Under the pieces are notes generated by a model. The model had not been told where the DNA came from, did not search any database, and saw only the letters and a program-made list of their open reading frames with translations. From Phragmitibacter flavus (GTDB lineage: Bacteria > Verrucomicrobiota > Verrucomicrobiia > Verrucomicrobiales > Verrucomicrobiaceae), in assembly GCF_005780165.1 (NCBI RefSeq), contig NZ_VAUV01000008.1, forward strand, positions 124,001-188,000: a DNA stretch of 64,000 nucleotides, in the 5' to 3' direction. A program made the translations under genes and the position numbers. Numbering within the stretch: position 1 is the stretch's first letter; every line of letters begins with the position of its first letter. Of this stretch, positions 1 to 25,688 are shown one piece after another.

Positions 1-1280
1 ACCGGGCGGCTGCAGACCTGGTAATGCGCGGTGGTGAGCGCGCCGTCCGCCCCGAACGTGTAGCCCTCGAATCCCGGGGCGGCCTTGTTGAAATCCAAAT
101 GCTGACCATGCTTCAGTCCAAGGTCGGAGCCGCCGGCGAGCACCAGCGGGAGGTTGGCATTGCCATGGCTGTGACCGTAGGACATGCCGCTGCCGAAAAG
201 CGACATGGTGGAACCGAGCAATGACTTGCCGTGAAGGTCCTTGGTTTCCGAGAGTCGCGTGAGGAAGTAACTGAACTGCTCAATGGCAAAGGTGTCGTAG
301 TTGGTGAGTTTCTCGATGTAGTCTGCATCACCTCCGTGGTGACTGAGTTGATGGCGCGACTCGGTAATTCCGATTTCGGGAATCGCGATCGCCTGGCCTT
401 CGCCACCGAGGCTGAAGGTGGCCACGCGGGTGACATCCGTCTGAAACGCCAGCACCATCAAGTCATAGACTGCGCGGAAATAATCACCTGCCAGAGTGTC
501 GGCGATGTCGCGGTTGGTGCGTTTGGCATCGGCTTCTGAAATGGCGGGCAGCGGCGTATCGAGCCATGCATCGGCCCGCCGCGTGCGGATCTCCGCCTCG
601 CGCACGGAAGTGAGGTATTGATCCATGCGTCCCTTGTCCTCAGAGCCCATTTTTTTGTCGAGGCGGCGAACTTCAGCGAGGTTGTCATCGAGCACGCTGC
701 CTTTGCGACGAAGGGCCCGTCGCTGGGATGCGATGCCGCCTTTTGGCTCGGCAAACATGGAGGAAAAGATCTCGCTGCAACGACGCAACGCGGGCAGACG
801 CACACCGTCGGCAGTCCAAGCGAGCGACTCCTGGGTGATGGCAACTTCGAGAGATGGGTAGCGGGTATGCTGCGCGGTGACCGCGGCCATTTGTTGGTCG
901 ACGGAAATGGTATTGCGATCAGTCGGCCCGAGCTTTCCACCGGTCAGCCAGATGCTGATGCAGTTATGGTGGTGACTGAGGCCTCCCGGATGATGCAATC
1001 CGCTGATGGGCGTGATGGACTCGCGATGTTTCTCCAGAGGCAAAAGCGACCGGGAAAACTGGTAGTCTTTCCCGGAAGTGGTGATCTGGTAGTTCAGCGA
1101 GTGAACGCCGTTGGCAAGATAAATGAAGGCGCTGCGCCGTGGCGTGGCGGTAATTTTCTCCGCAGCCGTGGCCCTGAACGGGACCATGCATTCCAGCAGC
1201 GGCAGGGAGATAAAAGTGCCCATCGCGCGAAGCGCATGCCGACGGTCAATCAGCCAGGATTGGGAGAGGTAGTTGCTCAT
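1..1280 (-). CDS. DUF1552 domain-containing protein (3' end outside window)
   Basis: Reads from ATG at 1278-1280 without a stop to base 1, so the C-terminus lies outside the window (about 426 codons seen). The N-terminus [21 protein letters not shown] followed by a hydrophobic stretch ([10 protein letters not shown]) is a Tat-like export signal. Typical DUF1552 stretches are visible: [23 protein letters not shown], the [13 protein letters not shown] segment, a central region ending [14 protein letters not shown], and the late block [19 protein letters not shown]. The family is exported and of unproven function; in Planctomycetes and Verrucomicrobia its gene normally follows a DUF1592/DUF1588 cytochrome gene. 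Here that partner lies at 1799-4240 on the same strand, with a small unrelated gene between. An AGGA inside the flanking repeat (about 1290) may serve as its ribosome binding site. Confidence 0.88.
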
Positions 1281-4636: not shown

Positions 4637-7600
4637 ATGCCGCTCCCGTTGCCGCGCCTTCCCTTTCGCGCCCTCATTCTGACACTTCTGGTGTTGCCCT
4701 GGTCCCTTTCGCAAACCGCGCATGCCGCCGATCCGTATCTGGTGAAGGACATCAATACCGTGCTGCGCAATGATGCTTCAGACCCGTATGATCTTTGTGT
4801 TATCGGTTCCACCACCTATTTCACTGCTTTCAGCCCTGCCACTGGCAGGGAACTTTGGAAGTCCGACGGCACAGAGGCTGGCACCGTCTTGGTTAAGGAC
4901 ATCGCAGCCGGCAGCATGGGCGCCAACATCACCGCCCTCGCCGCAATGAACGGAATCCTCTATTTCCGCGCCGATGATGGCATCCACGGCACGGAACTGT
5001 GGAAAAGCGACGGCACAGAACAAGGCACTTTGATGTTGAAGGACGCCACTCCTGGTGCCGCCTCATCAGTGATCGACCGGCTAACCCCCGTGGGAAGCAC
5101 CCTCTACTTCACCATTTCAGAGAGTGGCCTTCTCGTTACCTCTCCCAACGGTCATGTCTCCACCCCCTTGGATCAATCCCTATGGAAAACGGACGGCACT
5201 GCTGACGGCACCGTCAAGGTAAAGGATCTCAATCCTTACGCCCATGGCTACGAGAGATTTGGCGACTTAACCCCAGCAGGCAACCATCTTTTTTTCATGC
5301 ACTACACCGCTGCCCACGGCTCGGAGCTTTGGAAAAGCGATGGCACAGAGCAAGGCACAGGCATGGTGAAGGATATCCGCCCCGGCACCGGCGGCTCCGT
5401 TCCCAGTCATCTCACCGTTGTAGGCAGCACGCTCTATTTCAGCGCCAACGATGGCTCCACCGGTGGGGAGCTTTGGAAGAGCGATGGCACCGAGCAAGGA
5501 ACTACCCTGGTAAAAGACTTCATCCCAGGTGCGACCAGTTCCAATCCCACTGCACTAACCGCTTTTGGCGACCATCTCTATCTCCGGGCCACCGATAGCA
5601 CCCATGGGGCAGAGCTGTGGAAGAGCGATGGCACCGCGCTAGGCACCACCTTGGTAAAGGACATCAGTGATGGCTCTGCAAGTTCCTCCCCCTATGCATT
5701 TGCGGTGATCAATGGCTCGCTTTATTTCTCAGCCTCCGATGGCAACCTCGGCGTTGAGTTGTGGCGCACCGATGGCACCGCCGCAGGCACCATGCTGGTG
5801 AAGGATATCAACCCCGGCCCCGGTAACTCATCCCCTTCTGGACTATTTCCAGTGGGCAGCACCTTCTACTTCACCGCCAACGATGGAATCCATGGCACGG
5901 AGCTGTGGAAGACAGACGGCACCGCCGCTGGCACGACCATGGTGAAGGATATCCGCGAAGGCCTCACGCCCTCCACCATCTATTATTTCACCGCATCCGG
6001 CAACATCCTTCACTTCGCGGTTTCCGATGGCGTCCACGGGCTCGAGCTTTGGAAAAGCGATGGCACTGCGGGAGGCACCACGATGGTGAAGGACATCAAT
6101 GGCGGCAGCCACTCCTCCGACATTTCCCATCCCATCTCCTTCAATGGCGTGCTTTATTACCAGGCTGACGATGGCATCCATGGAAAGGAACTGTGGCGCA
6201 GCGATGGCACCGTTGGAGGCACCCGCATGGTGAAAGATATCGCACCCGGCCCCAATCATTCCTTCCCCTACGGCTTTAGGATTAAGGACGGCAAGCTCTA
6301 CTTCATGGTCACGGACTCTTCCGGCAGTTCCTCCGGCTGGTGGTGCAGCGACGGCACCGAGGAAGGCACTCAGCTCGTCAATTCCAACATCCAAAACTTC
6401 TATTCCGCCTTCGTGATGGGGAATTCTTTTTATTACCTCGATTACAGCTTCCAAACCTTTGCGTATTCTGATTTGTTCCGCACCGATGGCACAACGGAAA
6501 GCACCGTGTTGGTCAAAGATCTGGATGAAGTAACCAGCTTGGGTATCCAACAAGTCTTGGGCAACAGCATTTATTTCATGGGCGGCACTGCTGCTGAGGG
6601 CATCGGCCTGTGGAAGAGCGATGGCACCACGGCTGGCACTACCCTGGTGAAGCCCTTCGTGCTCCCCAGCCCAGTCATATTCTTCATTGGTCAGGGTGGC
6701 AGCACCATCATGAACAACACTCTTTACCTCGTCGCAGACGATGGCACCCATGGCTCCGAGCTTTGGAAGAGTGATGGCACCTCCGCAGGCACCACGCTGG
6801 TAAAAGACATCCTCAGCGGCAGCGGGAACTTCAGGATTTCTTTCCTGACGGCAGGCTCCAATTTGATTTACTTCCTCGTCGATGGAGAAAATATTCAGAA
6901 GCAGCTGTGGCGCAGCGATGGCACCGCGCAGGGCACCTTCTCCCTTTTTGAAATCGCCCCAACCCCCTTCCCACTCAACCCGCCCCTCCGTGAACTCATC
7001 GTGGTAGGCGACACGGTTTTCTTTGGGAACTACAGTCCAGAAACCGGCGCTGAGCTCTGGAAAAGCGACGGCACCATCGCAGGCACCGGCATGGTGAAGG
7101 ACATCAAGCCTGGCAGCGAAGGTAGCGCTATCGAAAGCCAAAGCGTTCACAACGGTCTCCTCTATTTTTCGGCAAACGATGGCATCCATGGCCACGAACT
7201 ATGGCGCTCCGATGGCACTGAAGCAGGCACCGTGATGGTGAGTGATGTCTCACCCGGCAGCGTTGGCTCAAGCCCCATCATCCTGGCAAAGGCAGGCAAC
7301 CTGCTGTATTTCACCGCCTCAAACGGGGATCAAGGCAGGGAGCTCTGGGCTCTCCCCCTCGCCGCAGATTACACTCCGCCCAGCGGTGGAACGTTCACAC
7401 TAACTCCCGCCACCTCCATCGATCCAGGCACAACACTCACCCTCACCTTTGCTGACTGGGTGGATGCAGATGCAGCCTCTCTTCCGCTCACCTACTCGAT
7501 CTTGGTGAATGGAGACGTCGTATCCCCATCAGGTCCCACCGCGTCTCGCAATTTTGCCTCGCCAGTTACTCCCGGCGTCCACACCATCACAGGCCGCATC

Positions 7601-8053
7601 CACGATTCTGCCAATAACCTCACCGATGTTATCTCTAGCTTCACCGTCAACACCCCGCTGCAGACTTGGCGCAGAACCTACTTCGGCAGCACCTCCAACA
7701 CCGGCACCGCCGCAGACACTGCCGATTTCGACCACGATGGCATCGCCAACCTTCTCGAATGGGCGACCGCACGGAATCCCACCATCGCCAGCACCCTGCC
7801 AGTCACCACCACCCTCAACAGCTTCACCGACAAGATTGAGTTCACCTACATTCGCAGTCGCGCCGCTTTCACTTCCGGCACCACCTACACCGTCGAGTGG
7901 AGCGACACCCTCGCCCCCAACAGCTGGAGCGATCTCGACGTGGAAGAAGTTTCCGTCATTGAAGTTGATGACGACACCGAGTCTGTCTTTTCACGAATCC
8001 CCGCTGGCAACCTCGGCAGACGCTTCGTCCGCCTTCGCGTCACGGCACCGTAG
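4637..8053 (+). CDS. secreted ELWxxDGT-repeat protein, copy 1
   Basis: 1138 residues. The signal peptide (FRALILTLLVLPWSLSQ, cleavage near AHAAD) is followed by 17 tandem repeats of about 55 residues, each carrying a variant of ELWKSDGTxxGT and most followed by VKDI. A degenerate final GRELWAL closes the array. The ELWxxDGT repeat resembles beta-propeller blades; its function is unknown and it occurs in large secreted bacterial proteins. After the array come an Ig-like segment (about residues 910-1005) and a 128-codon tail that is nearly identical to the tail of the next gene. The tail starts WRRTYFGSTSN and holds DFDHDGIANLLEWA, a Ca-binding or dockerin-like stretch frequent in verrucomicrobial secreted proteins. 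No PEP-CTERM anchor is seen, so release or another sorting route is likely. Repeats 11 and 12 (GWWCSDGT, DLFRTDGT) are degenerate. Confidence 0.9.
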   Translation: MPLPLPRLPFRALILTLLVLPWSLSQTAHAADPYLVKDINTVLRNDASDPYDLCVIGSTTYFTAFSPATGRELWKSDGTEAGTVLVKDIAAGSMGANITALAAMNGILYFRADDGIHGTELWKSDGTEQGTLMLKDATPGAASSVIDRLTPVGSTLYFTISESGLLVTSPNGHVSTPLDQSLWKTDGTADGTVKVKDLNPYAHGYERFGDLTPAGNHLFFMHYTAAHGSELWKSDGTEQGTGMVKDIRPGTGGSVPSHLTVVGSTLYFSANDGSTGGELWKSDGTEQGTTLVKDFIPGATSSNPTALTAFGDHLYLRATDSTHGAELWKSDGTALGTTLVKDISDGSASSSPYAFAVINGSLYFSASDGNLGVELWRTDGTAAGTMLVKDINPGPGNSSPSGLFPVGSTFYFTANDGIHGTELWKTDGTAAGTTMVKDIREGLTPSTIYYFTASGNILHFAVSDGVHGLELWKSDGTAGGTTMVKDINGGSHSSDISHPISFNGVLYYQADDGIHGKELWRSDGTVGGTRMVKDIAPGPNHSFPYGFRIKDGKLYFMVTDSSGSSSGWWCSDGTEEGTQLVNSNIQNFYSAFVMGNSFYYLDYSFQTFAYSDLFRTDGTTESTVLVKDLDEVTSLGIQQVLGNSIYFMGGTAAEGIGLWKSDGTTAGTTLVKPFVLPSPVIFFIGQGGSTIMNNTLYLVADDGTHGSELWKSDGTSAGTTLVKDILSGSGNFRISFLTAGSNLIYFLVDGENIQKQLWRSDGTAQGTFSLFEIAPTPFPLNPPLRELIVVGDTVFFGNYSPETGAELWKSDGTIAGTGMVKDIKPGSEGSAIESQSVHNGLLYFSANDGIHGHELWRSDGTEAGTVMVSDVSPGSVGSSPIILAKAGNLLYFTASNGDQGRELWALPLAADYTPPSGGTFTLTPATSIDPGTTLTLTFADWVDADAASLPLTYSILVNGDVVSPSGPTASRNFASPVTPGVHTITGRIHDSANNLTDVISSFTVNTPLQTWRRTYFGSTSNTGTAADTADFDHDGIANLLEWATARNPTIASTLPVTTTLNSFTDKIEFTYIRSRAAFTSGTTYTVEWSDTLAPNSWSDLDVEEVSVIEVDDDTESVFSRIPAGNLGRRFVRLRVTAP
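7667..8050 (+). repeat. shared 384-bp C-terminal module, copy 1
   Basis: The last 128 codons before the stop match 11204-11587 codon for codon with few changes and no length difference. The upstream repeat arrays of the two genes are much less alike at DNA level. Confidence 0.85.
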
Positions 8054-8215
8054 TTACAGCTATCCCAACTCAAATGAAGCCAGGCAGAGACCAGGAACGA
8101 GACCTTCTCCACTCCGAGCCTGGTGGGCAGGTAACCCGAAGGATTTGCTCGTCTTTCTCTCCCCTCCCTTCTAATCTAATCTAGGACTTCAAAGCCTCCC
8201 TCCGGATCTTATTGC

Positions 8216-11200
8216 ATGACTGTTGTATACCTATCACGCCGCCTCAGGTTGCTTGCCTTCGCCACACTCACCATCGCATTGGTATTTGTCTCACTTGGTC
8301 TTCACCTTCAGGCAAACCCCTTCTTGGTAAAGGACATCAATTCCAGCACCTCAAAATCCAGCAGCATTCCCGGGTCGCCGCTCAAGGTCGGTTCCGTCAC
8401 TTTCTTTTCCGCCGTTACCCCGGAGGCTGGCAACGAACTATGGAAGACCGACGGCACTGCCGCAGGCACCCAGATGGTCGCGGATATCTATCCTGGTTCC
8501 AACAGCTCCATGTTTACCGGTCCTATGGCCGCGATCGGCAGCACGGTCTTCTTCGTTGCCTCCCATCCCGTTCATGGCCGCGAGCTCTGGAAGAGCGATG
8601 GCACCGCCGCAGGCACCATGATGGTGAAAGACATCAACCCCGGCCCCGGCCAATCCAATCCAGACAAGTTTATCGTGATGAACAACACGCTCTACTTCAT
8701 CGCCACCGCCTTCACCAATGGAAACAAAGGCCTATGGAAAACTGATGGCACCGAGGCAGGCACCGAACAAGTAAAGCATCTCTACTCCATCAATCACCTT
8801 ACTGTCGTAGGCGACACCCTCTTCTTCGCCGCCGCCGCCAGCACTTTCAATGTGGAACTGTGGAAGAGCGACGGCACCACCCAAGGCACGGTAGAGGTAA
8901 AGGACCTCCTCCCTGGCAATTCCAGCTCTTTTCCCTCGGAACTCACCGCCATGGGCGGCACCCTCTACTTTGCCGTCGCAGATGGCACCCACGGCCTCGA
9001 ACTGTGGCGCAGCGATGGCACCAACGACGGCACGGTCATCGTGAAGGACATCAACCCCGGCACCGATGGGTCCAACCTGCGCTACTTCAAGGCCATGGGC
9101 AATGCGGTCTACTTCTCTGCCAACTCCCCCGCCACCGGCGAAAAACTGTGGAAGACCGATGGCACCGAGGAAGGCACCATCCCCATTTCAGGCAGCACAT
9201 TCGGCGAAGGACCCTACTACATCAATTCCCTAACCACCGCTGGCAATACCCTCTACTTTGTGGGGACAGATGCCACCAATGGCGCCGAGCTATGGAAGAG
9301 CGATGGCACCATCGCCGGCACCGCGCTGGTGAAAGACATCCGCCCCGGCAACACCCCTACCGCCGAGAGCCAAATCTCGCACATTATCCCGGTTGGAAAT
9401 TCCATCTACTTCTCCGCCGATGATGGCGTCCACGGAGAAGAACTGTGGAAGAGCAATGGCACCCTCGCAGGCACCGCTCTGGTGAAGGACATCAACCCTA
9501 GCTTTCTCCGCGGACTCCCCGAGTCCCTTGTCGAGATGAATGGCATTGTCTATTTCAGCGCCGAAGATGGCATCCATGGCTTTGAGCTCTGGCGCAGCGA
9601 TGGCAGTGCCTCAGGCACCTTCATGCTGAAGGATATCAATCTCCGCACAGGGAACAGCTCCCTTGTCCAACCCGTGAAAGTGGGGGATTTGCTGTATTTC
9701 TCTGCGAACAATGACACCGCTGGAAACGAGCTGTGGAAAAGCGATGGCACTGCCGCAGGCACTACCATGGTGAAAGACATCTTCCCATCCTTCCCCAGCT
9801 CTGTATTTACTCCACTGGCCGCCATCGGCAGCACCCTTTATTTCTCCGCCATCGACAGCCACAGCAACGGCATCGAGCTGTGGAAATCCGACGGCACGAC
9901 GAACGGCACCGTTCTCGTCAAAAACATCAATTCCAGTTCTGCCGATTCCCTTCCCAGCTCAGGCATGGTCATGGGCGATACCCTTTACTTCAGCGCCTTC
10001 ACTGGGACGCAAGGTCACGAGCTATGGAAAAGCGATGGCACCTCTGCGGGCACCATTATCGTGAAGGACATCTTCCCCGGGTCCGGCAATTCCTCCCACG
10101 CCAAGCCCCTCATTGTGCACAACAACAAGCTCTACTTTACCGCCAGCACCAGCGCCACCGGCACCGAACTGTGGTCCACCGACGGATCCGACGCAGGCAC
10201 CGCCATCGTCAAGGACATCAACCCTGGCATGGGCGGCTCAAACATCTCCCACATCGTCAGCTTCAGAAACATGCTGTATTTTGATGCCTCCGATGGCTCC
10301 TCCGGTCGCGAACTGTGGCGCAGCGATGGTTCTGAGGCAGGCACCACACGCGTGCGCGACATCCAGCCAGGCTCCGACGGATTCGTCTCGCAGATCACCG
10401 TAGCGGGCAACTCCATTTACTTCACCGCTTTCAGAACCTCCTCCGGCATCGAGCTCTGGAAAAGCAATGGCACCAACGCAGGCACCGTCCTCGTCAAGGA
10501 TATCCGCATCGGCGCCGACAGCTCCTCCATCAACAAGATCACCCCGGCAGGCAATCTTATCTACTTCACCGCCGACGACGGACTTGCCGGTGTCGAACTA
10601 TGGAAAAGTGATGGCACGGAGGCGGGCACCAAGCTGGTGAAAGACATTGCCCCCGGTGCCGCCACCTCTTCCCCCACCCATCTCACCGCCGCAGGCTCAG
10701 TGCTCTATTTTTCAGCCACCACGCCGGAGAACGGCACAGAATTATGGAAAAGCGATGGCACCGAGACAGGCACCGCCATCGTGCAGGATATCGTCCCCGG
10801 CATCAACAGCTCCGCTCCTGCAGGCCTCACCCTCATCGGCCACCGCCTATACTTTTCTGCCTACACTTATGAATATGACAGGGAGCTCTGGGCGTTGAAT
10901 ATTGCCGATACCATCCCACCGGCAGGCGGCACCGTCACTTTTAGCGTCCTCTCTCCCATGGACCCCGGCACCCCCATCGACTCCGTCACCTTTCAGGGAT
11001 GGTCCGATTCCGCCTCGCCATTGAGCTATGCCGTCTATATTGATGATACCCTTGTCTCCCCCCAAGGCTCATCCACCACCCGCCACAGCCTGCCCAACCC
11101 CGCCGCCCCAGGCACCCGCGCCGTTCGTGCCCGCATCTTCGATGCACTAAACAACTACCACGACGTCTTCTATAACTTCAACATCAACTCACCCTTGCAG

Positions 11201-11590
11201 ATCTGGCGCAGAACCTACTTCGGCAGCACCTCCAACACCGGCACCGCCGCAGACACCGCCGATTTCGACAACGATGGCATCGCCAACCTCCTCGAATGGG
11301 CGACCGCACGGAACCCCACCATCGCCAGCACCCTGCCAGTCACCACCCACTTTAACAGCGTTACGGGCAAGATTGAATTCACCTACATCCGCAGTCGCGC
11401 CGCCGTCACTTCAGGCACCACCTACACCGTCGAGTGGAGCGAAACCCTTGCCCCGAATAGCTGGAGCGATCTTGACGTTGAAGAAGTTTCGGTCGTTGAA
11501 GTTGATGATTACACCGAGTCTGTCTTTTCACGAATCCCCGCTGGCAACCTCGGCAGACGCTTCGTGCGCCTGCGTGTGGCCGCGCCGTAG
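8216..11590 (+). CDS. secreted ELWxxDGT-repeat protein, copy 2
   Basis: 1124 residues, tandem paralogue of the gene ending at 8053 (162-base gap). The N-terminus MTVVYLSRRLRLLAFATLTIALVFVSLGL is a signal peptide, with mature protein probably from about QANPFLVKDI. I count 17 ELWKSDGTxxGT-type repeats plus a terminal DRELWAL, the same number as in copy 1. An Ig-like linker (TIPPAGGTVTFSVLSPMDPG) follows, then the shared 128-codon tail. Variants such as LWKSNGT and LWRSDGS occur. Expected location is the cell surface or outside the cell; binding partner unknown. The equal repeat number and shared tail point to whole-gene duplication followed by divergence of the array. Confidence 0.9.
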   Translation: MTVVYLSRRLRLLAFATLTIALVFVSLGLHLQANPFLVKDINSSTSKSSSIPGSPLKVGSVTFFSAVTPEAGNELWKTDGTAAGTQMVADIYPGSNSSMFTGPMAAIGSTVFFVASHPVHGRELWKSDGTAAGTMMVKDINPGPGQSNPDKFIVMNNTLYFIATAFTNGNKGLWKTDGTEAGTEQVKHLYSINHLTVVGDTLFFAAAASTFNVELWKSDGTTQGTVEVKDLLPGNSSSFPSELTAMGGTLYFAVADGTHGLELWRSDGTNDGTVIVKDINPGTDGSNLRYFKAMGNAVYFSANSPATGEKLWKTDGTEEGTIPISGSTFGEGPYYINSLTTAGNTLYFVGTDATNGAELWKSDGTIAGTALVKDIRPGNTPTAESQISHIIPVGNSIYFSADDGVHGEELWKSNGTLAGTALVKDINPSFLRGLPESLVEMNGIVYFSAEDGIHGFELWRSDGSASGTFMLKDINLRTGNSSLVQPVKVGDLLYFSANNDTAGNELWKSDGTAAGTTMVKDIFPSFPSSVFTPLAAIGSTLYFSAIDSHSNGIELWKSDGTTNGTVLVKNINSSSADSLPSSGMVMGDTLYFSAFTGTQGHELWKSDGTSAGTIIVKDIFPGSGNSSHAKPLIVHNNKLYFTASTSATGTELWSTDGSDAGTAIVKDINPGMGGSNISHIVSFRNMLYFDASDGSSGRELWRSDGSEAGTTRVRDIQPGSDGFVSQITVAGNSIYFTAFRTSSGIELWKSNGTNAGTVLVKDIRIGADSSSINKITPAGNLIYFTADDGLAGVELWKSDGTEAGTKLVKDIAPGAATSSPTHLTAAGSVLYFSATTPENGTELWKSDGTETGTAIVQDIVPGINSSAPAGLTLIGHRLYFSAYTYEYDRELWALNIADTIPPAGGTVTFSVLSPMDPGTPIDSVTFQGWSDSASPLSYAVYIDDTLVSPQGSSTTRHSLPNPAAPGTRAVRARIFDALNNYHDVFYNFNINSPLQIWRRTYFGSTSNTGTAADTADFDNDGIANLLEWATARNPTIASTLPVTTHFNSVTGKIEFTYIRSRAAVTSGTTYTVEWSETLAPNSWSDLDVEEVSVVEVDDYTESVFSRIPAGNLGRRFVRLRVAAP
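11204..11587 (+). repeat. shared 384-bp C-terminal module, copy 2
   Basis: Second copy of the tail at 7667-8050, same length and same distance to the stop codon. Visible changes are mostly single bases, for example DHDG to DNDG and VTAP to VAAP. Confidence 0.85.
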
Positions 11591-18933: not shown

Positions 18934-19460
18934 GGTGTAGGACTGGTTGAGGGCAGCTTGTCTGTTTGGGCGAGCAACACTTGCGTGCTCCGGCACAGCT
19001 CGGGAGTCGCAAAGGCCTGCTCCGCGTTCATTCGATCGGTGACCAAAATCTGCAACGCCTTCAGTTTAGGATTGGAACCCCAATTTTCTGCCCCGGGCAG
19101 GGGTTCTGCATCTGCAACGGCGACGCGCGCGGTGAAGATTCGATCAGCCGCATCATTCTCCAGGCGCATCCCCTGTCCATCGAAGAAAAAATCTTCGCTC
19201 TCACTGGACTGCCGCTGATTCAACACCTCCTGCCAATCGCGCATGCGGTAGTCTGCGGCAACGAACTGTGCGATCCGTGCTTCCGCCGTGCGTGCGCCAG
19301 CTTCCCGAAGGGTGTTGAGGGATACCGGGATGAGTCCCACCAGAGCAGCGACCACCGATGAGGCAAGGCCCACAGAAAGCGCGGTCTCGGCCAGGGTGAA
19401 TCCTTGAGATTTTCTGGTTTTGGTTTTGATTTTGGTTGGATTTAGGGATGCTGGTTTCAC
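18930..19460 (-). CDS. vccB: Verru_Chthon cassette protein B (prepilin-like)
   Basis: 176 residues. The prepilin-like leader KSQGFTLAETALSVGLASS (G before F, Glu at +5) is followed by VVAALVGLIPVSLNTLREAG, the pattern of cassette B proteins. Start and stop both overlap neighbours by ATGA (vccA stop at 19457, vccC start at 18933), so A, B, C and D are probably made from one message. Small soluble tail (about 140 residues) with no recognised domain. Likely membrane-anchored and exposed outside the inner membrane. Confidence 0.85.
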   Translation of the reverse strand: MKPASLNPTKIKTKTRKSQGFTLAETALSVGLASSVVAALVGLIPVSLNTLREAGARTAEARIAQFVAADYRMRDWQEVLNQRQSSESEDFFFDGQGMRLENDAADRIFTARVAVADAEPLPGAENWGSNPKLKALQILVTDRMNAEQAFATPELCRSTQVLLAQTDKLPSTSPTP

Positions 19461-22400
19461 GGTGCGAATGTTTTTTTGTTGATGATTCGGAAGCGGTAAT
19501 GATCGTCGATGGCTTCAGTGGCATTGGTATTTTCAATAAGTGCCGGCAGGGTGGGATCGTTGGGATCCACATATCGCTCGATCAGTGCGGAGCCGCGTTG
19601 TTCGGCGATGAGCGCATCAGCATTCTCATCCCATTCAGCCGCTGCACTGGAGCGTGCTTTTTTTAGTGCCTGCACCCGATAATGGACCTGAAAGGTATTG
19701 GAACGCGTGGTGAGTCGGGGATACAACTGGTTGTATGGTGACTCGCGCACGTTGTCACCGGTAAGTTCCATGCCATCTTTTTGGGTGTTGAGACTGCCAT
19801 TCCACCAAGTGACCACATTCTCAAAGGTGGGATCGGGAGTGTTCATGACCCGCTGCGGATAAGTTCTGCCTTCTATCTTTTTGGGCACCAGGAATATCTC
19901 GCAAATTTCCGAAGCACTGCGGAAAATGTCACCTGCATTGAAGCGTCGATGAAAGCCTCTCATGGTTTCCTCAGCGTTGATCTCAAACATCGTTTCATAC
20001 TTCAGCCAGTTATCCCAGGCCTTGTAACACTCCTGTTTCTGCTCGGCGCCAGCGCCCCATGTGGAGGCGTCGCCCGCCCATGCCACTTCCGTAGGAACGG
20101 CGCTGAGACGCGTTCCACGCAGGGCGGCATGCAGGCCGGTTTCCCGTCGTAGATAAGTGAATGGCATGATTTGTTGGTTCATGTTGATCTTGCCGGATGT
20201 GGAGAGCGGCTCACTGATCGCGTAAGGTTCCACCACCGGCATCCAGAACAGGTCGAGCAGCAGGTGATCACGTGGAGGACGAAAGCCATAATGATCCACC
20301 TGGGTCGGTTCCGCACCCGACGCCGTGCTGCGGGAAGGAGGGTTGGGACTAAACAACAAGGTCTGCCATGGCCCCACCTTGTTGCCGATGCCCGGCACGG
20401 GATGCACGCCACTCGGCAACGAACCGAACGCCACCGCCGAGGCGATTTGACGATTGGGCGCATAGTTACCGGCATCTTCGGTGTCGGTGTAATCGAACAA
20501 GCTGAAGTAACTGGTGCGATCCGTGGTGGTGTTGGTTTTGAATCCGGTGGTATCCGGTTGGTTGATATAGGGTCCATCCTCAACACGGCCAATGCCGCTG
20601 TCCCAATCACCCGGACGGCTGGCGCTGCCGGCTCCGGTATTGTAAGCGCCGTCCAGACGATACGGTGTCGCCGGTTGACAGTCCTGCCAGTAGGCCACCT
20701 CTTTTAACAATCCGTAGGGTTGGATTTGATTCAGATTGGATCCATTCAAGACATAACCTGCCGCCTGCCAGGGATGCAAGCGGCCGCCCTTGGTAGGGTA
20801 AAGCACCGATTGCTGTTCCATTCCCCGTCCATAATGTCCTTGATAACTGTTCGCCGACCTTCGCAACGTTTGCGCCATCCATGTGGTTCCTGGAATGCCC
20901 GCCGGCGCGGTTCCAGGGGTAACGCCCGTAAGATAGTCGGCATGAGGGGCATAATAAGTCGCGGGGATTTCCCGCAGTGCGCAAAGAAGCCGGTAGTCGC
21001 CTTTGTTTGGTCCGCCGGCGTGTGCCGCCACGGAACGCACGACATCACCAGGAACAAAAAGGTTCTCTGCAGGATTGTCATTCACCAAACGGCTTTGAAC
21101 GCTCATTTTATTCTTCGCGTTTTCCCAGGTCCAGTCGACGTCATCCCAGCTTATCTTGGGGCGCTGGCGTGCCCGTGGGGTTGGCCAAGGCGTCGTTGAA
21201 TCGGGAAAGGTTAGGTTGGCCGTTTGGATCAAGGTGGCATCGCTGATGGCTCCCGGATCAGGACTGCCAATGTGGGTTTCGATGGTGATCGGTCCTCCGG
21301 TGAAGGTAAAGGTATCACCTACGGACACGTCGACCTCCACGCTTACAAAAGGAAATTTCTCCACGGGATTGCTGCCCCCATCCACCAGCTTGGCGGTTGC
21401 CCGGGAGCGGAAGAATTGGGCGTGCAACGACGTGTAGGCGCTCGACCTCCCTTCGTCCCAGGTGTCATAGCAGGGCATGCGTGCGTGATTCACGGCATCG
21501 GCGGGAAAGCCGAGCGATGCCCCATTCACCCTCCAGGTTTCGAGACCGCGAATGCGATAATTGACATCCGGCGAATAACCTGGCAGACCCACCACGGGCG
21601 CGAAGGGTTGCAAGATCAAAAAGGCACGCATCTTGTTCGTCTTGTCGGCGATGTTGTCGCCGTCCTCGTCTTTTGGCGTGCCATCGGGCAACAGTTCGAC
21701 ATCGGTCGCGATGAACACCAAGGCCGCTTCAATCACACTGGGAAAGTGGCCGAAAGATTTTAACGTTTCGCCAAACGGTTCCACGCCAGCGCCATTAGTC
21801 ACCACTGGAGCCGCCGAACCTTCGGCGAAAAACTCTGCGCCGTTGGCATCGGTCGACACCCGTGTCGGAGGAAGGAAACGGTATTCTGGATCGGTGTGGC
21901 GGCTCGCTGGATTCACCCCCCAGCGCACCATGTCGAACATGTTTAACAAGATCTGATTTTGGTTCCTCTCGCCATACTTGTTTCTGAAAGTTTGCGCACC
22001 GAACCCAGGCACGGGCTGTTGGGTGAGCCGTTGCAAATAGCTAAATACCTTTTGATTGCCTGCCAGTTCAAAGTCTGCCACAGGACTCTGTGAGGAGCCG
22101 CGGTTGTTTAAACTTTTCCAGGTTTCTGCGCGTTGGAAGTAACCTTGTTCTCCGGCAACATTGGCGCAGAATTCCAAAAGCTTGTCCTTCGAGTTGCGAG
22201 CCTCCGTTTCGGCCTGGATGGGCCACAGGGAAATACGCGGACGATTAAACCCGTTGGTTTCCGGCGCACGACTATGGGCGGTGAGAAAGAACCGGCCAGT
22301 CTCCAGATCCCGGGCATCAACCGATCCAGCGGATAGGTTGGGCTGCCGTTGTCCGCTGACCGGATCATATTCCGTGCCGAAGAAAAATTCATCCGTCGTG

Positions 22401-23557
22401 GCAAACAAACGTTCGCGTTTGAATGGCAGGCCGTTGGGGGAAGATACCAATTCGCTGCCGCCGCGTGATCCCTGACCAGATTCACCGAGGTGAATACGTG
22501 GCAATAAGTTGTAGACTCCACCAAGCCACGTCTGATACTCCGGCTTGTTGCTCACGGTGCCATCATTGATGATGTTCGGATAACGCCACCGGTAACGCGG
22601 GTCAAACCCTTGCAGAACCACACTTAGCGAAGTCATTCCCGGATGCCCAGGATACCGCTGAAACTCATTCTGTGCGGGAGGGAAATAGGCGTAGTTGCGA
22701 TCCGTCCAACTGGTGGTGCGGGGCACGTCCCAAGGAGTGCCTTCGCCTGCCGTGTTGATGTTGACCTTGCAGCTTTCGTCATCCGTCCAGAAGGCGATGC
22801 GTCCAACGATCGGGTTGTTTTGCGTGACCGCATCAGGATCAAAGGTCACCTTCTCCGCAGTTCCACCCGTCGGTGCGACGAGTTTGCCATCTTGCAACAC
22901 ATACAACCAGCGCGTGGGCATTGGAAGTGGTTGCTGATCGGTGCCTCCAGGCACCGCCTGGGTGGTGGAGATCCCGAATCCACCCACGCCCGTATTGCCT
23001 GTTCCCGGCAACGCGGTGGGACTGAGGATGGGGTAGATTCGATCAATGGTTCCGTTGGCATTCAATCGGGCAACCGGTTCATTCAAGTCGGTGAAACGTG
23101 CCGGAGCAGTGTCCCATCCGCCCAAACTGGCCGCTTCGTCGGCCGCAACAAAGTCCGCGCCAGACTCCACCATCTTGTCGGAGCTGTATAACTTCCACAC
23201 GGACTCCGTTGCAGAACGTAACTGTGCCGTCGATCCTCCACCAGGATGGGGACTGGTGCCGAACACGCGAATCATGCCCGGTTGGGAAGCCCAGGTTCTG
23301 GCCATACCCAAATCCGCCGTTGCCTGCTGAATCTGACCCATCACGATGGATGCCGGCATGTCCGACAAGGTGCGCGCCTCGGCCGTTTCACTGAAGGCCG
23401 CTGAAGACTTGGTTTCCACCGTGCCCAGAGAGAACATGGCCAGGACCAGGACCATCAGGATGGACATGATCACCAATACCAGAACCAGCACCATGCCGGA
23501 TTGTGAACGGGAACGGTTTGCCGCCACCCCTTGGCGGTTAAGTCCGTAAGGTTTCAT
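19457..23557 (-). CDS. vccA: cassette protein A from the internal start (alternative product)
   Basis: Alternative reading of the same frame. ATG at 23555-23557 is preceded by GGGAGGGG and followed by the pilin-like helix that opens VccA proteins, giving 1366 residues. The four bases ATGA at this start also spell a TGA in the next frame, exactly the overlap used between vccA/B and B/C. This suggests the upstream PEP-CTERM gene originally ended here. The large soluble part has blocks such as FWTDDESCKVNINTAGEGTPW and HYGFRPPRDHLLLDLFWMP. Function unknown. List as one of two possible products, not a separate locus. Confidence 0.6.
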   Translation of the reverse strand: MKPYGLNRQGVAANRSRSQSGMVLVLVLVIMSILMVLVLAMFSLGTVETKSSAAFSETAEARTLSDMPASIVMGQIQQATADLGMARTWASQPGMIRVFGTSPHPGGGSTAQLRSATESVWKLYSSDKMVESGADFVAADEAASLGGWDTAPARFTDLNEPVARLNANGTIDRIYPILSPTALPGTGNTGVGGFGISTTQAVPGGTDQQPLPMPTRWLYVLQDGKLVAPTGGTAEKVTFDPDAVTQNNPIVGRIAFWTDDESCKVNINTAGEGTPWDVPRTTSWTDRNYAYFPPAQNEFQRYPGHPGMTSLSVVLQGFDPRYRWRYPNIINDGTVSNKPEYQTWLGGVYNLLPRIHLGESGQGSRGGSELVSSPNGLPFKRERLFATTDEFFFGTEYDPVSGQRQPNLSAGSVDARDLETGRFFLTAHSRAPETNGFNRPRISLWPIQAETEARNSKDKLLEFCANVAGEQGYFQRAETWKSLNNRGSSQSPVADFELAGNQKVFSYLQRLTQQPVPGFGAQTFRNKYGERNQNQILLNMFDMVRWGVNPASRHTDPEYRFLPPTRVSTDANGAEFFAEGSAAPVVTNGAGVEPFGETLKSFGHFPSVIEAALVFIATDVELLPDGTPKDEDGDNIADKTNKMRAFLILQPFAPVVGLPGYSPDVNYRIRGLETWRVNGASLGFPADAVNHARMPCYDTWDEGRSSAYTSLHAQFFRSRATAKLVDGGSNPVEKFPFVSVEVDVSVGDTFTFTGGPITIETHIGSPDPGAISDATLIQTANLTFPDSTTPWPTPRARQRPKISWDDVDWTWENAKNKMSVQSRLVNDNPAENLFVPGDVVRSVAAHAGGPNKGDYRLLCALREIPATYYAPHADYLTGVTPGTAPAGIPGTTWMAQTLRRSANSYQGHYGRGMEQQSVLYPTKGGRLHPWQAAGYVLNGSNLNQIQPYGLLKEVAYWQDCQPATPYRLDGAYNTGAGSASRPGDWDSGIGRVEDGPYINQPDTTGFKTNTTTDRTSYFSLFDYTDTEDAGNYAPNRQIASAVAFGSLPSGVHPVPGIGNKVGPWQTLLFSPNPPSRSTASGAEPTQVDHYGFRPPRDHLLLDLFWMPVVEPYAISEPLSTSGKINMNQQIMPFTYLRRETGLHAALRGTRLSAVPTEVAWAGDASTWGAGAEQKQECYKAWDNWLKYETMFEINAEETMRGFHRRFNAGDIFRSASEICEIFLVPKKIEGRTYPQRVMNTPDPTFENVVTWWNGSLNTQKDGMELTGDNVRESPYNQLYPRLTTRSNTFQVHYRVQALKKARSSAAAEWDENADALIAEQRGSALIERYVDPNDPTLPALIENTNATEAIDDHYRFRIINKKTFAP

Positions 23558-25633
23558 CCCCTCCCGGCAGGAAGTTGGTGGAACGGAACGGCGTCGGCGC
23601 AACACCAGGCACAAACCACCCGTCAATAAAAGCAATACCCGCCCAGGTTCAGGAACCACCGCCACTCGAACATGGTAACCGTGCTCATTGAGCAGGCTCT
23701 CCCATTTCAAACCCTCGGCCAGTTCAGGCATATCGTCAAACACCAGGTCCCCACTGTAAACGGTTGCCGCCGTTACCCCTGACCAATCAATCAAACGCCA
23801 GGTATCTCCCAGAGCCCAACCGATGAAGTCATCATTGGACAGTCCCGTGGTGTCAGTCAGACTCAGGCTCCCACTTAGTTGAACCGTCGAGTCGCTGGCG
23901 ATCACCAATAAATCGTTGTTATCCAGAGGATTTAGAAGATTGTCTTCCGCGCCAACATTGTTCCAGATGTTCAACTCCAGCGTGCCGCCCAGGCTGGTAA
24001 CACCGGTGCCAGAGTTAACCAGACGCAATGACTGACCTCCGAGACCGCTCGACGTCCCAACGGAAAGAAAGGAGCCGTTTCCAAGCGTGATGTTCTGCTG
24101 GCTGGAACTTAGTCCCACCTGACCGCTCCCGGCGAGCCGTCCACCGCTTTGGACCAGCACATGGCCAGCGCCGGTGGCGGAGGTTCCCAGCGCGTTGTTG
24201 GCGAGAAGCACGCCTTGTTCAATGGTCGTCGTTCCCGTGTAAGTGTTGGCAGCCGTTAGCGTAAGGATACCGAGTCCCCGCTTAGTCAAACCGCCGTCCA
24301 CCACATCATCGCCATCAAGATTACTATGCTCAAGGACCTGGTTGACGGTGATATTAAATCCATTGGTGTCAAAGACGGCACCGTCATCGCGAACATTGAC
24401 CCGGGTAAGCCCCTGAAGGTAAGATCCAGTGCTCTGGCTGGCCTGGAGAGTGCCTCCGTTAAAGTTAAGGATGCCGGAAGATCCGCCGCCTTTTGCAACC
24501 CCACCGGTAGTCAAAGTGCCGCCATCGAGATTGACCTCCCCGACACCACCACCTTGGGCAATTCTGGTGTAGCCTGTCACCCCGGTGGTAACCACGCCCT
24601 CGGCGGATAGAGTCAACGTGCCGTCGCCTCCCTCCCCGACCCATAGCTCGTTGGTGGCGTTGAAGGTTCCGCCGCTGACATTCAGTGTGGAGGTGCCTCC
24701 TGCAAATGAACTTAACACCGTCTGGCCGCCAGTGGTGGCCGCATTGACGGTGCCCCCGGTGAGGTTGTAAGTCCCGTTTCCTCCATTGTCCCGCCCGATG
24801 ACAAACCAGTTATTCGAGGAAACCGTTCCGGACGATTGGTTAAAGACCCCAGTTCCATTTTGACCAACCCATAACTCGCCGGATGCGTTCAACGTTCCTC
24901 CCGTCATGTGGTAAGTTCCATTGGCACCGGTGGCATTGCCTACGATGAAAAGGTCCGCACTGAGGCTGCCGCCCGATTGATTCATCACACCAATGGCGGT
25001 GGCGTTTTCAGAGGAATACGGGCTCTGCCCCACGCTGAAGGTTCCTCCTGAAATGATGGCCCCGCCATTCAGGTTGAGTGTGCCAGTCCCCCCCGAGCCC
25101 CCGATCGCGAATCCGAAATTGGAATTCACTGTTCCTGCGTCGACCGTCAACACGCCGGTTGGATAGTCGGCATTTCCCCACGAACTATGGCCAACGTTGA
25201 CATAATTGAAAGAGGCGCTGCCCGTCGTATTGATGTTCATCGTGCCATTGCCTGAACCATGTCCTATGGAGGCGTCGCCGGTTGCGCTGATGCTGCCAGA
25301 ACCAGTCAGGTTGTAGGTGCCTGTGCCATACAAACCGACGTTGAACCACCCGGTGGTTAAGGTGCCTGCGGAATGGGCAACGGTCGCACTCCCAAACCAT
25401 CGACCCGCTTCAAACCCCGCCACGGTCTCATCGCTGCTGATGGTGACTGTGCCGTTGATTAATGCGTTGTCAGCGGAAGTCGGCTTCGCATCGCCCTCCC
25501 AATTTGCAGCGGTGCTGAAATTGGTGTCCTCCCCACCTCCAGAGTCCCAGACAAAGTCGGCTGCCTCCAACATCTGAAAACAGAAGATGGAGCAAACCGT
25601 CAAAAGGCTGGAAGCGCGCAATGGATTTTTCAT
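19457..25633 (-). CDS. vccA: PEP-CTERM autotransporter-repeat protein fused to Verru_Chthon cassette protein A
   Basis: 2058 residues from ATG at 25631-25633; AAGGGAAG directly before it is a good ribosome site. First part (about 1-690): signal peptide (SSLLTVCSIFCFQMLEA), then Gly/Asn/Thr-rich autotransporter-associated beta-strand repeats (GTYNLTGG, GTLNLNGG, GVFNQSSG). This part ends in a complete PEP-CTERM signal: VPEPG, hydrophobic RVLLLLTGGLCLVL, then RRRR. Such proteins normally stop there. Here the frame runs on without a stop into MKPYGLNRQG and a PilX-like helix (SGMVLVLVLVIMSILMVLVLA) that begins a typical cassette protein A of about 1366 residues. A strong internal start at 23557 argues that VccA can also be made alone. 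Either a true fusion or a frame change that removed the stop. Confidence 0.82.
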   Translation of the reverse strand: MKNPLRASSLLTVCSIFCFQMLEAADFVWDSGGGEDTNFSTAANWEGDAKPTSADNALINGTVTISSDETVAGFEAGRWFGSATVAHSAGTLTTGWFNVGLYGTGTYNLTGSGSISATGDASIGHGSGNGTMNINTTGSASFNYVNVGHSSWGNADYPTGVLTVDAGTVNSNFGFAIGGSGGTGTLNLNGGAIISGGTFSVGQSPYSSENATAIGVMNQSGGSLSADLFIVGNATGANGTYHMTGGTLNASGELWVGQNGTGVFNQSSGTVSSNNWFVIGRDNGGNGTYNLTGGTVNAATTGGQTVLSSFAGGTSTLNVSGGTFNATNELWVGEGGDGTLTLSAEGVVTTGVTGYTRIAQGGGVGEVNLDGGTLTTGGVAKGGGSSGILNFNGGTLQASQSTGSYLQGLTRVNVRDDGAVFDTNGFNITVNQVLEHSNLDGDDVVDGGLTKRGLGILTLTAANTYTGTTTIEQGVLLANNALGTSATGAGHVLVQSGGRLAGSGQVGLSSSQQNITLGNGSFLSVGTSSGLGGQSLRLVNSGTGVTSLGGTLELNIWNNVGAEDNLLNPLDNNDLLVIASDSTVQLSGSLSLTDTTGLSNDDFIGWALGDTWRLIDWSGVTAATVYSGDLVFDDMPELAEGLKWESLLNEHGYHVRVAVVPEPGRVLLLLTGGLCLVLRRRRSVPPTSCREGMKPYGLNRQGVAANRSRSQSGMVLVLVLVIMSILMVLVLAMFSLGTVETKSSAAFSETAEARTLSDMPASIVMGQIQQATADLGMARTWASQPGMIRVFGTSPHPGGGSTAQLRSATESVWKLYSSDKMVESGADFVAADEAASLGGWDTAPARFTDLNEPVARLNANGTIDRIYPILSPTALPGTGNTGVGGFGISTTQAVPGGTDQQPLPMPTRWLYVLQDGKLVAPTGGTAEKVTFDPDAVTQNNPIVGRIAFWTDDESCKVNINTAGEGTPWDVPRTTSWTDRNYAYFPPAQNEFQRYPGHPGMTSLSVVLQGFDPRYRWRYPNIINDGTVSNKPEYQTWLGGVYNLLPRIHLGESGQGSRGGSELVSSPNGLPFKRERLFATTDEFFFGTEYDPVSGQRQPNLSAGSVDARDLETGRFFLTAHSRAPETNGFNRPRISLWPIQAETEARNSKDKLLEFCANVAGEQGYFQRAETWKSLNNRGSSQSPVADFELAGNQKVFSYLQRLTQQPVPGFGAQTFRNKYGERNQNQILLNMFDMVRWGVNPASRHTDPEYRFLPPTRVSTDANGAEFFAEGSAAPVVTNGAGVEPFGETLKSFGHFPSVIEAALVFIATDVELLPDGTPKDEDGDNIADKTNKMRAFLILQPFAPVVGLPGYSPDVNYRIRGLETWRVNGASLGFPADAVNHARMPCYDTWDEGRSSAYTSLHAQFFRSRATAKLVDGGSNPVEKFPFVSVEVDVSVGDTFTFTGGPITIETHIGSPDPGAISDATLIQTANLTFPDSTTPWPTPRARQRPKISWDDVDWTWENAKNKMSVQSRLVNDNPAENLFVPGDVVRSVAAHAGGPNKGDYRLLCALREIPATYYAPHADYLTGVTPGTAPAGIPGTTWMAQTLRRSANSYQGHYGRGMEQQSVLYPTKGGRLHPWQAAGYVLNGSNLNQIQPYGLLKEVAYWQDCQPATPYRLDGAYNTGAGSASRPGDWDSGIGRVEDGPYINQPDTTGFKTNTTTDRTSYFSLFDYTDTEDAGNYAPNRQIASAVAFGSLPSGVHPVPGIGNKVGPWQTLLFSPNPPSRSTASGAEPTQVDHYGFRPPRDHLLLDLFWMPVVEPYAISEPLSTSGKINMNQQIMPFTYLRRETGLHAALRGTRLSAVPTEVAWAGDASTWGAGAEQKQECYKAWDNWLKYETMFEINAEETMRGFHRRFNAGDIFRSASEICEIFLVPKKIEGRTYPQRVMNTPDPTFENVVTWWNGSLNTQKDGMELTGDNVRESPYNQLYPRLTTRSNTFQVHYRVQALKKARSSAAAEWDENADALIAEQRGSALIERYVDPNDPTLPALIENTNATEAIDDHYRFRIINKKTFAP
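23558..23565 (-). promoter_or_regulatory. purine-rich ribosome site before internal vccA start
   Basis: Read on the minus strand, GGGAGGGG directly abuts ATG at 23557. The spacing is short, but the match to the anti-Shine-Dalgarno sequence is strong and would be an odd coincidence inside a coding region. Confidence 0.55.
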
Positions 25634-25672
25634 ACTTCCCTTGAAAATAAATCTTCCGTGCTTTGGGAACAA

Positions 25673-25688
25673 TAGGTGCAAACACCTA
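25673..25688. repeat. 16-bp inverted repeat upstream of the PEP-CTERM/vcc operon
   Basis: TAGGTG CAAA CACCTA, a perfect 6-bp inverted repeat with a 4-base centre, 40 bases before the start at 25633 in the gap between divergent genes. It could be an operator or a small hairpin; no factor is known. Confidence 0.4.

Follow-up and report, generated by a model that had tools for sequence, protein, structure and literature searches.

Adjacent ELWxxDGT repeat genes of Phragmitibacter flavus: predicted tandem nine-bladed propellers and C-terminal tails probably homogenised by recombination

The window analysed here is a whole stretch of 64,000 nucleotides from the verrucomicrobial bacterium Phragmitibacter flavus (contig NZ_VAUV01000008.1, positions 124,001 to 188,000, forward strand). 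The assembly analysed comprises 5.91 Mb in 44 contigs with a completeness of 99.89. The window carries two adjacent genes, named C8a and C8b, which are members of the ELWxxDGT repeat proteins (TIGR04534 of NCBIfam); the whole proteins score 923 and 1013 bits, respectively, and pass the curated cut-off of 65. The genome contains four ELWxxDGT genes arranged as two tandem pairs, the second of which (C32a and C32b) lies on another contig. The features of the window pair, including an immunoglobulin (Ig)-like segment and predicted rings, are as follows.

4637..8053, plus strand: gene C8a, 1138 amino acids, with signal peptide, 18-unit ELWxxDGT array, Ig-like segment, and C-terminal tail domain (open reading frame; 18 TIGR04534 stretches; AlphaFold model).
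4637..4729, plus strand: putative signal-peptide-like N-terminal segment of C8a, residues 1-31 (hydrophobicity by eye; predicted local distance difference test, pLDDT, 33-42 in the model).
~4715-4771, plus strand: N-terminal VKDI strand of C8a, predicted closing position of ring 2 (from BamB alignment ranges).
4730..7363, plus strand: 18-unit array of C8a, residues 32-909 (unit counts; 72 model strands, 18 x 4).
4772..6106, plus strand: predicted ring 1 of C8a, approximately residues 46-490 (from structural-alignment ranges, DPP IV chains 46..489).
6116..7357, plus strand: predicted ring 2 of C8a, approximately residues 494-907 (from BamB alignment ranges).
7367..7654, plus strand: single-copy Ig-like (REJ-like) segment of C8a, residues 911-1006 (Pfam REJ, 7e-6 over 913-1032; model strands).
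7667..8050, plus strand: tail module of C8a, 128 codons, near-identical to the C8b tail (34/384 bases differ; tail profile A7).
8216..11590, plus strand: gene C8b, 1124 amino acids, architecture as in C8a (open reading frame; 18 TIGR04534 stretches).
8315..10897, plus strand: 18-unit array of C8b (motif and unit counts).
11204..11587, plus strand: tail module of C8b (alignment with the C8a tail; 34 base differences).

The original prediction, made from the window alone, stated that both genes have the same number of repeats. With a relaxed motif this is correct, as each protein has 17 ELW-type units followed by a terminal ELWAL half unit; in its strict form, ELWxxDGT matches only 12 times in C8a and 10 times in C8b. 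Because 17 motifs and a split unit are present and TIGR04534, which models one 47-residue repeat, gives 18 stretches per protein, an array of 18 units starting at the VKDI strand is the better description. The same count is found in all four ELW paralogs of the genome. The equal repeat number of C8a and C8b is family-wide and corresponds to twice nine, which the original prediction overlooked.

The two tails are of equal length (384 bp), as had been noted, and the few base changes mentioned earlier amount to 34. Of these, 8, 2, and 24 lie at codon positions 1, 2, and 3, respectively, and 10 of the 128 residues are changed. The arrays do differ far more, at approximately 46% of their bases. Nucleotide and amino acid identities between C8a and C8b are 54% and 43% in the array, 55% and 37% in the Ig-like segment, and 90-91% and 92% in the tail. 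Windowed identity stays at about 0.42-0.66 along the array and Ig-like segment and reaches 0.88-0.93 in the tail; the step, from about 0.5-0.6 to about 0.9, is sharp and lies near position 7664, and similarity is lost past the stop codon. The tail contains five exact shared runs of at least 23 nucleotides, including runs of 55 and 53 nucleotides, and the longest run outside the tail is 25 nucleotides.

Synonymous divergence is also not uniform along the genes. In the tail, the proportion of synonymous differences (pS) is 0.24-0.27, synonymous divergence (dS) is 0.29-0.33, and nonsynonymous divergence (dN) is 0.04. The array has a pS of 0.62 and a dS of 1.29, and the Ig-like segment has a pS of 0.63 and a dS of 1.40, which places the dS of the tail approximately fourfold below both. 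Fisher tests on rounded synonymous differences gave 2.5e-6 for tail versus Ig-like segment and 2e-10 for tail versus array. The cause had been left between selection and gene conversion. Of the two, conversion (or an exchange with the same effect) is preferred because the synonymous sites are alike too. A general selection for tail constancy was not supported, since the tails of C32a and C32b, with 36% amino acid identity, have diverged to the same degree as their arrays. A constraint at the nucleotide level was ruled out as a general property of the tail because the C8 tails are near synonymous saturation when compared with the C32a tail (pS 0.68-0.73). The near-identical tails of the window pair probably arose by recombination between the two neighbours, most simply by gene conversion.

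Comparable contrasts occur elsewhere in the family. Seventeen within-locus ELW gene pairs were comparable in both array and C-terminus, and in three of them C-terminal pS is at least twofold below that of the array: L144 (0.12 vs 0.46), L148 (0.25 vs 0.66), and L174 (0.11 vs 0.64). The L150 pair has a weaker contrast (0.44 vs 0.74), and C8a/C8b joins the contrasting pairs if the tail is taken alone. Several observations speak against a general or simple exchange of tails. Little or no C-terminal contrast was found in 12 of the 17 pairs, including the C32 pair of the same genome (tail pS 0.71, array pS 0.76). The differences between the C8 tails are uneven, ranging from 0 to 10 per 48-bp block; therefore, a single clean recent event is not established.

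The main rival to gene conversion is head replacement, in which the tail is old and the array and Ig-like segment of one gene were swapped through recombination with another ELW paralog. This event predicts the same pattern, with one breakpoint at the tail edge. The array heads of the four paralogs are about equidistant (42-47% amino acid identity), and C8a and C8b are not sisters in the array tree, where, with weak support and long branches, C8b groups with C32a (81/65) and C8a with a family relative (87/90); this placement equally fits copying of the tail between old paralogs. However, head replacement needs an exchange of approximately 3 kb that includes the signal peptide, compared with a tract of approximately 0.4 kb, and a search of the genome's four ELW genes gave no close donor head for either gene. 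The genus-level comparison covered this genome alone. Head replacement is thus considered unlikely, and gene conversion would be the simplest account.

Recent duplication of the whole gene is far less probable. In that case, the tail would show the true age of the pair, and the arrays would look old through shuffling or exchange of units within arrays. Units are barely in register between paralogs, with same-position best matches in 0, 0, 2, 2, 2, and 1 of 17 units for the paralog pairs and register permutation p values of 0.37, 0.28, 0.058, 0.003, 0.017, and 0.54, respectively. Nevertheless, the Ig-like segment between array and tail has diverged like the array, and because it is single-copy, repeat shuffling cannot account for its divergence; the signal peptides are likewise diverged. 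A scenario of purifying selection confined to the tail and no recombination fits the low dN and the predominance of third-position changes in the tail but is barely credible, as it is contradicted by the likeness of the synonymous sites, the near saturation between C8 and C32 tails, and the low protein identity of the C32 tails.

The tail is found on other proteins of the genome, as the original prediction had anticipated. Besides the four ELW genes, it was detected at E <= 0.01 on six further large proteins. Peptidase S8, Calx-beta/PKD, CotH, or pectate-lyase-like domains are present in five of these six, including two with subtilase domains. Within the bacterial family, the tail occurs in 47 of 68 genomes, with up to 23 copies per genome at E <= 1e-8, and across the phylum the tail profile matched 113 of 237 genomes, with scoring of at most 18 candidates in each. 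End positions were read in 35 tails, leaving out L066 and the truncated loci L049, L051, and L058. The match ends at most 9 residues from the stop codon in 32 of them and 41-42 residues before it in the other three. The C8 tail has no Pfam or NCBIfam match at E <= 1. Among 26 tail members, no Pfam family was recognised at E <= 0.01, and NCBIfam gave three stray matches of one member each. The best PDB match by sequence was a serine-rich repeat adhesin (E 0.017). The tail has a DxDxDG loop, from which calcium binding can only be guessed, and its second half is predicted to be strand-rich.

These sequence comparisons indicate that the tail is a C-terminal domain of exported verrucomicrobial proteins matching no named family, and its position and distribution make a sorting or anchoring role plausible. 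It resembles the type A sorting domain of the type IX secretion system (T9SS; TIGR04183, PF18962), which terminates the Bacteroidota ELW proteins L096 and L150, in being a C-terminal beta domain common to many exported proteins. However, none of the 26 tails matched this domain at E <= 0.01, and the SprA translocon (TIGR04189) had no match in this genome, compared with one match of 2792 bits in a Flavobacterium control genome. A T9SS origin of the tail was ruled out on these grounds. The homogenised ends of the cyanobacterial pairs L148 and L174 are C-terminal target domains of the type I secretion system (T1SS; TIGR03661), which are unrelated to the verrucomicrobial tail in sequence and belong to another export route. 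The less diverged end of the Bacteroidia pair L150 is the T9SS sorting domain, and the homogenised end of the planctomycete pair L144 contained no domain recognised in the family scan. Since a known export module lies in the homogenised or less diverged part of three outside pairs, an export or sorting role of the verrucomicrobial tail becomes more plausible, without being demonstrated.

The unit number was followed through the family with a profile built from the four genes and then widened, which was run on three samples. Sample A consisted of 80 loci retrieved with 18-unit arrays, a query that biases it towards 18; sample B consisted of verrucomicrobial genomes retrieved with the single-repeat model; and sample C consisted of 16 of the 20 plasmid records retrieved with a three-unit query, which has no bias towards 18. 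After duplicates, eight contig-edge arrays, and runs of fewer than 4 units were left out, 167 arrays remained. Those with a gap of 80-115 residues (26 arrays) were counted apart. The 141 gap-free arrays, which come from many phyla, have 5 (3 arrays), 6 (2), 7 (2), 8 (10), 9 (20), 10 (2), 15 (1), 16 (6), 17 (7), 18 (85), or 19 (3) units, and none has 11-14; 9 or 18 units are present in 105 of the 141. In the plasmid sample C, 10 of 15 gap-free arrays have 9 units and one has 18. Among the gapped arrays, seven have 17 units and one gap, which probably represent 18 units with one degenerate, four have a 9-linker-9 arrangement, and one has 12 units and one gap.

The joint between the two sets of nine is visible in several proteins. 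In four planctomycete arrays (the two genes of L126, L133, and L170), approximately 43 extra residues lie exactly between units 9 and 10, and in L126 and L133 unit 9 terminates like a terminal unit. At the cyanobacterial locus L136, stretches of approximately 125 residues of other sequence lie between runs of 9, 8, and 9 units; by eye, these stretches look like the Calx-beta domain recognised in L148. The runs in L148 and L174 are 9 and 7, 10 and 10, 9 and 9, and 10 and 8, the last two possibly with one missed unit each. Standalone nine-unit proteins are encoded at L149, L106, and six plasmid loci. In the plasmid loci L228, L230, and L233, complementary half units at both ends add up to nine in a permuted register, a closure of the kind that would be expected of a ring. 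The plasmids with these permuted arrays come from Gemmobacter, a Rhodobacteraceae bacterium, and Azospirillum lipoferum. Across 80 distinct 18-unit arrays, the profile scores of units 9 and 10 are the lowest within units 2-17, and unit 9 has the lowest share of the W..DG motif among units 1-17, which may be regarded as a modest trace of the joint.

The preference for nine and 18 is subject to several counterweights. Arrays with 8, 16, 17, and 19 units occur, as does the gapped array of 12 units; sample A was retrieved with an 18-unit query; and the counts are not independent because the arrays share descent. The 16-unit arrays of L135 (Calditrichia), L147 (Tenacibaculum), L149 (a planctomycete), and L156 (Aquimarina) suggest an eight-plus-eight class. 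Two 18-unit arrays were seen within single proteins at L100/L177, L134/L178, and L168. The Magnetospirillum plasmid gene at L227 5827-7305 has only five recognised ELW units, with conjugation-type secretion genes on one side and efflux genes on the other; its protein might complete a ring through oligomerisation.

The propeller-like nature of the array, proposed from the window, is supported by structural models. The AlphaFold model of C8a (84 aligned rows) has a mean pLDDT of 88.4, a predicted template modelling score (pTM) of 0.74, and 72 array strands, and that of the nine-unit protein from L149 (442 residues, 42 rows) has a pLDDT of 91.9, a pTM of 0.90, and 36 strands. In VIA-align, the best match of the C8a model was the nine-bladed design Cake9 (PDB 6tjh; Z 23.3, 342 of 359 residues), followed, among the matches listed, by DPP IV (17.2) and Scone (17.1). 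The L149 model matched Cake10 (Z 23.9) and Cake9 (Z 23.0) over residues 1-428, and DPP IV came next (17.5) among the matches listed. Certain results are less favourable to nine-bladed rings. Foldseek ranking by E-value places LRP/ROS1 and sortilin propellers on top, its best TM-score for the nine-unit model is with sortilin (TMq up to 0.62, root-mean-square deviation (rmsd) 6.7), and Cake9 is outside the best 50 Foldseek matches listed. Sortilin is in turn outside the best 50 VIA-align matches listed, which says nothing on its absence or difference. The models are also not independent of the count because their alignment rows were chosen with nine or 18 units. The array sequences found nothing convincing in the PDB (best E 0.04), where no solved relative was detected.

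On these models, ELWxxDGT arrays are predicted to be single or double nine-bladed propellers. In C8a, BamB 53..389 aligns with residues 494..885, or BamB 39..392 with residues 26..908. Because the longer alignment starts from BamB residue 39, the N-terminal strand of C8a is placed at the N-terminal strand of BamB; judging from the first and last residues of these ranges, this strand may close ring 2 and interlock the two rings. Other arrangements of 18 units, such as three six-bladed rings, one 18-bladed ring, or an open superhelix, are highly improbable. Six divides 18, and the PDB sequence search gave no solved relative; however, the models match the nine-bladed design across the whole ring, and three six-bladed rings in particular were ruled out by the nine-unit proteins and the linkers between units 9 and 10.

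Compared with known systems, the arrays belong to a known repeat family and would give a known fold in a new form. The present analysis agrees with TIGR04534 in the 18 stretches per protein and adds to it a predicted ring and a rule for the count, namely nine units or twice nine. Cake9 is the closest structural likeness (Z 23, 341-342 of 359 residues, rmsd 3.7), but it is artificial, has a single ring, and shares 11% sequence identity. According to PMC8458387, Cake9 is nine-bladed and Scone has an eight-bladed fold, and WRAP and Cake are described as able to form eight or nine blades (PMC6805158, PMC8458387). This choice may be analogous to the eight- and 16-unit ELW classes. Natural nine-bladed propellers have been described for eIF2A and eIF3b, and some DPP IV are described as nine-bladed (PMC9218822). 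They resemble the ELW models in blade number, with Z 16.9 over 342 aligned residues for 3wj9, probably eIF2A judging from its entry title and date, and approximately 17 for DPP IV chains. They differ in belonging to the WD40 or DPP IV families, in lacking the ELWxxDGT motif, and in not being tandem twins. A literature search of open-licence papers found no paper on ELWxxDGT or ELWKSDGT.

Two other observations concern the surroundings. A 2074-amino acid open reading frame lies in the window at 19457-25681 on the minus strand. The C32 pair is neighboured by minus-strand open reading frames at L011 13420-14991, which by eye presumably resemble the urease accessory proteins UreG and UreF.

Taken together, C8a and C8b are likely to be adjacent, anciently diverged exported paralogs, each starting with a signal peptide, followed by 18 ELWxxDGT units that form two tandem nine-bladed beta-propellers, an Ig-like segment, and a shared C-terminal domain, with the tail copied by recombination. 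The array would stay at 18 units because its rings close at nine blades, and the units may diverge freely within this fixed number, probably yielding different ligand surfaces; ligand binding by the propellers is itself putative. The N-terminal strand would interlock the rings by closing the second one. The tail is probably handled by a common export or cell-surface machinery, and one tail would have been overwritten by the other through recombination, most simply gene conversion, when the arrays were already divergent. A wider proposal is tentative and on balance doubtful, namely that ELWxxDGT proteins form a large bacterial family of natural nine-bladed, mostly interlocked twins and that the tail serves as the signal for an undescribed route of sorting or surface attachment, with conversion between tandem genes homogenising the tail copies.

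Among beta-propellers, blade number is an enduring question, and designed propeller sequences are described as often adopting a blade number other than intended (PMC8458387). A widespread natural family whose unit counts peak at nine and 18, with a smaller class at eight and 16, would offer many independent sequences to probe what fixes this number. The tail is a testable candidate for the sorting of large surface proteins in Verrucomicrobiota. Finally, the tandem ELW genes suggest that, through recombination, the export module of a protein can evolve at a very different pace from its binding module.

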